Source: Deltaproteobacteria bacterium (GTDB lineage: Bacteria; Desulfobacterota; Syntrophia; Syntrophales; UBA5619). From it: a stretch of DNA of 38,115 bases. Positions 4,748-38,115 of the stretch are shown piece by piece (position 1 is the first letter of the stretch; each line of letters opens with the position of its first letter). Under the pieces are notes generated by a model. It searched no databases and was not told the origin of the DNA. It saw only the letters and a program-made list of their open reading frames with translations. The stretch spans positions 1 to 38,115 of the forward strand of contig JAJFUM010000473.1 of the NCBI GenBank assembly GCA_021372415.1, given 5' to 3'. A program made the translations under genes and the position numbers.

Positions 4748-4776
4748 TTGACAGACCAGGGGGCTCTTCGTATTCT
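4748..4776 (+). promoter_or_regulatory. sigma70-type promoter of the REC-GGDEF gene
   Basis: TTGACA at 4748-4753, a 17-base spacer and TATTCT at 4771-4776, giving a leader of about 100 bases. The first 14 bases (CTTGACAGACCAGG) are identical to those at the promoter at 408. Confidence 0.65.
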
Positions 4777-4846: not shown

Positions 4847-4887
4847 AAAGGAGAGGGCCGCGGGGAAATCCGCGGCCTAAGAGGATG
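4847..4887 (+). promoter_or_regulatory. Hairpin-bridged Shine-Dalgarno of the REC-GGDEF gene
   Basis: A perfect AAAGGAG (4847-4853) lies 31 bases from the ATG at 4885, too far for normal use. Between them is a perfect 8-bp hairpin, GGCCGCGG (4856-4863) with CCGCGGCC (4870-4877). Removing the hairpin leaves 9 bases between the Shine-Dalgarno and ATG. A weaker AAGAGG at 4879-4884 touches the start codon and is badly spaced. Confidence 0.5.
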
Positions 4888-7141: not shown

Positions 7142-7170
7142 TTGACACGATCGCCCACTTCCCCTATACT
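7142..7170 (+). promoter_or_regulatory. sigma70-type promoter of the GlcD/GlcF operon
   Basis: TTGACA at 7142-7147, a 17-base spacer and TATACT at 7165-7170. Predicted transcription starts near 7177, about 65 bases before the preferred ATG at 7242. Confidence 0.75.
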
Positions 7171-16717: not shown

Positions 16718-16748
16718 GAAGAAAGGCCGGTCCATTCGGACCGGCCTT
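16718..16748 (-). terminator. Terminator after the rlpA-like gene
   Basis: A perfect 11-bp stem (16723-16733 with 16738-16748, loop ATTC) lies 60 bases after the rlpA-like stop. Minus-strand sequence after it is TTTCTTCG, and a seven-T run occurs about 15 bases further on. Confidence 0.65.
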
Positions 16749-36975: not shown

Positions 36976-37731
36976 ATGGAAACGGAAGTCTGCGCATCTG
37001 ATCTCTACAAGGCCTGTCATGTCCTCTTCGGATCGGAGATCGACGTCTCCGCCGATTTTCTCCGTTATTTGCAGATGCCGGGACTCAAGGCCGTCTACCG
37101 GCAGAAGGCCCTGGAGACCCATCCGGACCGGGCCATCGCCCTGGAACGCTCCACCGGCGATCTGGAGGAGCAGTTCAAGGCCGTCAACGCTGCCTACCAG
37201 GAGCTTTCCCAGTACCTTGAGAACCCCCTCCGGTTCAAACTGATCGAGGATGCGCCACCGAAGCCCCGTCCCCGTCCCAGGGCCCAAACCCAGACGAAAC
37301 GAAAAGGCACGCACCCCCAGGAGTTCCGGGGGCCCCTCTTCAAAGGGTCCGTGCCGAAGCGGGAGCTCCTCTTTGGGCAATACATCTATTATTACGGCCA
37401 TATCTCCTATCGACAATTGATTGACGCCATCGTCTGGCAGAAGATCCAGCGGCCCCTGGTGGGCACTCTCGCCATGCGCTGGGGGTGGCTGACCGAGGCA
37501 GAGGTCCGGGAGGTCCTGAAGGATCGCCACCGGGGTGAGAAATTCGGCGAAACGGCCCTGCGCCGGGGGGATCTCATGCCCGACGAGGTGCGGGTCCTTC
37601 TCAGAAGGCAACGGCTGCTGCAGCCCAAGATCGGCAAATATTTCGTGGAAAAAAAGATCCTGTCGGCAATTCTTGTCGAAAGGATGGCCGAAGAATTGCG
37701 CCGCCACAACCGGAAGTACCGGTCCCGGTAG
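36976..37731 (+). CDS. J-domain protein with four tandem C-terminal repeats
   Basis: A 251-residue protein. Residues 30-82 form a J domain: LKAVYRQKALETHPDRA carries the essential HPD (49-51), and EQFKAVNAAYQELSQYL the third helix. A basic Pro-rich linker follows (PPKPRPRPRAQTQTKRK). Residues 132-248 consist of four tandem repeats, each starting with a hydrophobic residue and Gly (FG 133, VG 162, FG 190, IG 219; spacing 28-29), with a pattern like the N-terminal domains of type II secretion/MshE ATPases. It should stimulate a DnaK ATPase at a specific site or client. AGGAG sits 3 bases before ATG 36976. No dnaK or grpE is nearby. Confidence 0.82.
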   Translation: METEVCASDLYKACHVLFGSEIDVSADFLRYLQMPGLKAVYRQKALETHPDRAIALERSTGDLEEQFKAVNAAYQELSQYLENPLRFKLIEDAPPKPRPRPRAQTQTKRKGTHPQEFRGPLFKGSVPKRELLFGQYIYYYGHISYRQLIDAIVWQKIQRPLVGTLAMRWGWLTEAEVREVLKDRHRGEKFGETALRRGDLMPDEVRVLLRRQRLLQPKIGKYFVEKKILSAILVERMAEELRRHNRKYRSR

Positions 37732-37868
37732 TGCTCCGAGGGACCGCCCCGCCGTTGTTCCCAGGCCCCTGATCCGGATGTCGCCGGAGGTGCCTTCCGA
37801 GTGATCCTCCAGGCCTTTCAAGTTTGTTTCCGTCCCCTGTATCACTTCTGCATCATGGTGGCCGCCAG

Positions 37869-37924
37869 CCGCTTCGGAGGCCGGGGCCTCTCCGGAGCGG
37901 TCCTCTTCGACCAAGTCGTTTTTT
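37869..37924 (+). terminator. Probable terminator downstream of the DnaJ-like gene
   Basis: A 12-bp stem with two G-T pairs (37869-37880 with 37889-37900) is followed by a short hairpin CGAC-CAA-GTCG (37908-37918) and six T (37919-37924). It is about 140 bases after the stop codon. Confidence 0.45.
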
Positions 37925-37950
37925 GAAAAATACTTATGAAAAGTGGTCAT

Positions 37951-37979
37951 TTGACATGGGAGGCCCTGGTGCGTATAGT
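37951..37979 (+). promoter_or_regulatory. Strong sigma70-type promoter with no ORF downstream
   Basis: TTGACA at 37951-37956, a 17-base spacer and TATAGT at 37974-37979: five of six -10 bases and all -35 bases match consensus. Transcription should begin near 37985, running toward a convergent gene. Confidence 0.7.
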
Positions 37980-37984
37980 GCCGG

Positions 37985-38070
37985 GCATCCCACCGGACAG
38001 GGCGGCGGCGCATTGTGCGCCGCACAGAGGCCGGGAGGGGCCCGGCCGGATGCGCCCCGGCTGGCGAAGG
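37985..38070 (+). ncRNA. Candidate small structured RNA
   Basis: The predicted transcript starts at the 5' strand of a closing helix: GCATCC (37985-37990) pairs with GGATGC (38048-38053). Inside are GCGGCGCA-TTG-TGCGCCGC (38005-38023, 8 bp) and GGCCGGG/CCCGGCC (38029-38035 with 38041-38047, 7 bp). Helix 3 abuts the closing helix directly. No ORF fits. The 3' end is unknown because no T-run is visible before the convergent gene. I recognise no known RNA family. Confidence 0.4.
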
Positions 38071-38075
38071 GGTCG

Positions 38076-38115
38076 TCAGGTCATCCCGATGATCTTGTAA
38101 ATAACAGGGTTGGGC
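38076..38115 (-). CDS. C-terminal end of a protein entering from the right edge (partial)
   Basis: On the minus strand the last 13 bases-triplets of the window read PNPVIYKIIGMT followed by TGA (38076-38078). The stretch looks like a normal hydrophobic protein end but is too short to name. It converges on the promoter and candidate RNA at 37951-38070, whose transcript could run antisense into it. Confidence 0.35.
   Translation of the reverse strand, partial: PNPVIYKIIGMT

Follow-up and report, generated by a model that had tools for sequence, protein, structure and literature searches.

The window analysed here, that is, the whole stretch of DNA considered, is one complete contig of 38,115 bases from an assembly of 477 contigs. 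The features under study (Table 1) sit at the contig end, where only 130 nt are left after the predicted transcription start. An extension by overlap was sought, and the last 28 bases were absent from all other contigs of the bin with up to three mismatches allowed. A search for tRNA and tmRNA genes found none. The 16S rRNA gene is missing from the bin, although this was rated 97% complete.

Table 1. Features at the end of the contig, in order of position
Feature	Position	Strand	Basis
DnaJ-domain protein, 251 aa (upstream gene)	36976..37731	+	Pfam PF00226, E 6e-07
A+T-rich stretch, candidate UP element	37913..37950	+	74% A+T
Sigma70-type promoter TTGACA-N17-TATAGT	37951..37979	+	Sequence; genome-wide class, 41 sites vs 0 in reversed control
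Closing helix, 5' strand, GCATCC	37985..37990	+	Folding; conditional on start base
Hairpin 1, 8 bp, loop TTG (3 nt)	38005..38023	+	Folding
Hairpin 2, 7 bp, loop AGGGG (5 nt)	38029..38047	+	Folding
Closing helix, 3' strand, GGATGC	38048..38053	+	Folding; conditional on start base
16-codon ORF, ATG start	38050..38100	+	Sequence, frame translation; possibly chance

The promoter and its class in the genome

A preliminary description of this DNA had proposed a near-consensus promoter, among the best in the window, and both statements hold. The -35 hexamer TTGACA (37951-37956) and the -10 hexamer TATAGT (37974-37979) match the consensus at 11 of 12 positions, and their 17-nt spacer falls within the 16-18 nt range; only the promoters at 7142 and 23507 score equally high within the window. 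Pairs of TTGACA and TATAGT with at most two mismatches occur eight times in it, compared to 0.26 expected from shuffled sequence. The 38 bases preceding the -35 hexamer reach an A+T content equalled in just 100 of the 38,078 windows compared, and this stretch is a candidate UP element, presumably with the corresponding function. Transcription generally starts around 6-8 bases past the -10 hexamer, with a preference for purines, so both G37985 and A37987 are plausible starts. The evidence supports a genuine promoter of the sigma70 type with strongly folding sequence after it.

Across the genome, the pattern TTGACA-N17-TATANT was found at 41 sites and its reversed control at none, which indicates a promoter class in use. 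Out of these 41 sites, the 30 retrieved as loci (hereafter sister promoters) were examined for coding-like gene starts on the same strand by a rule based on GC by codon position, a length of at least 80 aa and the first start per frame, which is rough and misses some genes. By this rule, a gene start lies no more than 250 nt away at 18 of the 30, and no more than 130 nt away at 17 of those 18; one of the others lies within a coding frame and 11 have no gene start, in such a way that 13 of the 30 lack a start within 130 nt. The corresponding figures were 4/30 in the opposite direction and 113/600 at random positions. This genome makes use of the class, which is directed at genes.

Near-consensus TTGACA promoters also occur at 408, 1870, 4748, 7142 and 23507, all on the plus strand, and the sigma70 class of this genome is strikingly canonical. 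Each of these five, the other plus-strand promoters of like quality in the window, is followed by an ORF, 5 to 154 nt away, and after that at 4748 a perfect 8-bp GC hairpin (4856-4877) lies just ahead of the ribosome site of its gene. At one sister promoter, L116 (1500-1640; G000:C371:3706), a hairpin begins near +1; looser gene rules place an ORF at +67, while the stricter rule counts no gene there. Its leader fold (z -2.9) is the strongest among the sister promoters read, and parts of its spacer seem by eye to be repeated in inverted form around 50 nt downstream. Two further sister promoters on separate contigs, L093 and L115 (G000:C70 and C346), are identical across promoter and start region, which makes a repeated element likely there.

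When the sister promoters were read for the A+T content just upstream and for the leader fold (L104 being read as its neighbour in both comparisons), the former was 68% at most, below the value at 37913-37950, and only L116 had a more extreme fold than the promoter at 37951 (z -2.4).

Folding of the sequence after the promoter

The two perfect hairpins of 8 and 7 bp given in the preliminary description were recovered at 38005-38023 and 38029-38047, with pairing probabilities of at least 0.94 in all fragments tried, except for the top A-T pair of hairpin 1 (around 0.64). Of 2000 local dinucleotide shuffles, 4 contained a pair of hairpins with 7 bp or more and none the full three-way geometry, which was also absent from the rest of the window; the rule for these counts was set after the feature was known. 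The 71-nt core (37985-38055) folds with a z of -3.2 to -3.6 against shuffles, and longer stretches fold less strikingly (-1.1 for 37980-38075 and -1.8 for 37986-38115). Elsewhere in the window, at 16723-16748, a perfect 11-bp hairpin of terminator-like form, AAGGCCGGTCCATTCGGACCGGCCTT, separates two minus-strand ORFs.

A helix closing around both hairpins at the predicted start had also been described, and this stands in part: the 6-bp complement exists, but its pairing is not robust and hinges on the exact start base. In RNAs reaching at least 38061, the helix forms with a probability of 0.58-0.90 when the RNA begins at G37985, its own first base and a possible transcription start, with 0.10-0.51 from 37984, and with 0.00-0.01 from 37986 or 37987. 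Such behaviour might be imagined as an RNA switch gated by the start site, in which the start nucleotide would set the fold of the leader and the expression of a gene beyond the contig; a start at G37985 would give the three-way junction, a start one base later would refold the RNA with loss of the junction, and the 16-codon ORF at 38050 would possibly act as intermediary. We hold this switch to be very improbable.

Concerning what follows the promoter, the 16-codon ORF is preceded by a Shine-Dalgarno-like run, GGGAGGGG, at 38033-38040, some of which falls within the hairpin 2 loop, and one plus-strand frame stays open up to the contig end. Little weight attaches to the earlier statement that no gene follows: the contig breaks off at 38115, 130 nt past the predicted start, and 13/30 sister promoters likewise have no gene start within that distance. 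The same description suggested an RNA antisense to a convergent gene at 38076. The minus strand does show 12 open codons, PNPVIYKIIGMT, and then a stop, but frames at least as long precede 554 of the 830 minus-strand stops in the window, and the convergent gene, together with the antisense role built on it, comes down to a chance-level frame. The convergent tail, sought with up to three mismatches, was absent from 153 other genomes in the order, which is a weak test since C-termini diverge, and no T-run follows the hairpins on either strand. An antisense RNA, or a bidirectional terminator serving such a convergent gene, is therefore considered very unlikely.

Search for related sequences

The DNA of 37930-38115 had no match in 99 other genomes. 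A covariance model built on this one sequence, and thus of limited reach, yielded nothing credible in 154 further genomes from the order, in 394 other genomes sampled from the phylum (a set that overlaps the former), or in the 30 sister-promoter loci. Its one hit in the order, at chance level in G015 (23.6 bits, E 0.83), lies inside a 247-aa ORF and was rejected. Applied to eight viral and six other loci, the model gave three matches of 16.6-23.6 bits, of which the best is this G015 hit; two lesser matches from a separate scan, of 17.4 and 19.1 bits, were also taken as chance. Rfam gave no match at the gathering threshold, and up to an E of 10 it gave only chance-level matches over 37730-38115. 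Among these weak alignments to the hairpins are LAGLIDADG-2 (RF03094; 15.9 bits against a gathering score of 94.9, E 1.1) and, on the minus strand, nhaA-II (RF03038; 18.3 bits against 70.4, E 1.9), both at chance level. As neither DNA comparison, nor the covariance model, nor Rfam yielded homologues, the covarying base pairs that the preliminary description proposed to look for in related genomes did not emerge.

No second copy of the element was found in the genome; plasmid and phage DNA gave short pieces only (26-35 bases, E 0.1-0.7), and short motif scans of viral contigs and relatives gave scattered matches only. A literature search combining three-way junction, small RNA and Syntrophus returned nothing, which says little.

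Conservation of the element next to conserved flanking genes was followed on the upstream side only. Relatives of the DnaJ-domain protein were detected in 8 of 40 other genomes, and in the six of those eight loci that were read a different gene comes next in each, and the element is absent from all. In two of the six a promoter was seen by eye in the same place, followed by the next gene: TTGACC-17-TATCAT in G002 and TTGACA-17-TATATT in G033. In G002 a 71-aa ORF and then a 276-aa ORF come after the DnaJ-domain homologue; the protein of the latter ORF has no match in the genome of the window, an uninformative result.

A proposed hairpin-bearing leader and its alternatives

The simplest account, to which we give somewhat better than even chances, takes the feature as a 5' leader with hairpins, on a transcript that continues rightwards off the contig. 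The strong sigma70 promoter, probably aided by the A+T-rich stretch upstream, would start an RNA at around 37985-37987, whose first 70 nt would form two GC-rich hairpins of high stability, perhaps joined by the closing helix in a three-way junction. The RNA would then run beyond 38115 into a gene outside the assembly, and the hairpins may shield its 5' end from RNase attack or space the ribosome site. With just 130 nt of contig past the start, a downstream gene is possible, and the leader reading is supported by the sister promoters, which point at genes, by the precedents of hairpins at 4748 and near +1 at L116 in the same genome, and by the promoters in the same place in G002 and G033. In addition, no terminator-like site was called on the plus strand of 37980-38115. 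Against it, 17 of the 18 gene starts detected at sister promoters lie within 130 nt, which would make a longer leader unusual, and of these promoters only L116 shows a more extreme fold. Structured 5' leaders of bacterial mRNAs, such as the stem-loop of E. coli ompA that reportedly protects its mRNA, resemble the element in having a hairpin at the beginning of the transcript or close to it, directly after a strong promoter. Unlike the ompA leader, the element has a three-way arrangement and a much higher GC content, and is known from a contig without its putative gene.

The strong promoter and the compact fold beginning at the predicted start would also suit a stand-alone, lineage-specific small RNA of around 70-130 nt with its own promoter, and the plus strand past the start holds no long closed ORF. 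For the new small RNA of the preliminary description, however, neither a terminator or 3' end on the 130 nt of contig past the start, nor covariation, nor a homologue in the genomes and families searched was found, and the closing of its helix depends on a single start base; we regard it as rather unlikely. The hairpins are most likely a structured untranslated leader and not a separate regulatory RNA. A different origin, as a GC-rich intergenic palindrome (a protein site, a recombination scar or a processing hairpin) that follows the promoter by accident, would agree with the minus strand of the core, which folds equally well (z -3.45), and with the excess of perfect hairpins over the whole window (35 compared to 20.1 +/- 4.3 in shuffles). 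Against it, the genome has no second copy and the element lies directly at the predicted start; we hold this origin to be distinctly unlikely.

Ribosomal RNA operons are frequent assembly break points, and a bin without a 16S gene, with a contig that breaks off shortly past a strong promoter, could suggest the start of one. Seven 16S-bearing loci were available, and the leaders readable in four (L037, L038, L040 and L042), from relatives of which one is of the same genus, bear no similarity to the final 384 bases of the window and have a different coding sequence upstream. The rRNA-operon leader was rejected as very improbable. Retron-like and transposon-end readings were considered and set aside; a retron RNA would seem to need more than the 57 nt enclosed, and neither a reverse transcriptase nor a transposase was noticed alongside.

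A hairpin-bearing leader would be an ordinary feature, and its main use would be as a caution against reading "no gene follows" at the end of a contig. If the element were a lineage-specific small RNA or a fold gated by the start site, it would represent a small new regulatory element, in a lineage known here from draft assemblies only.
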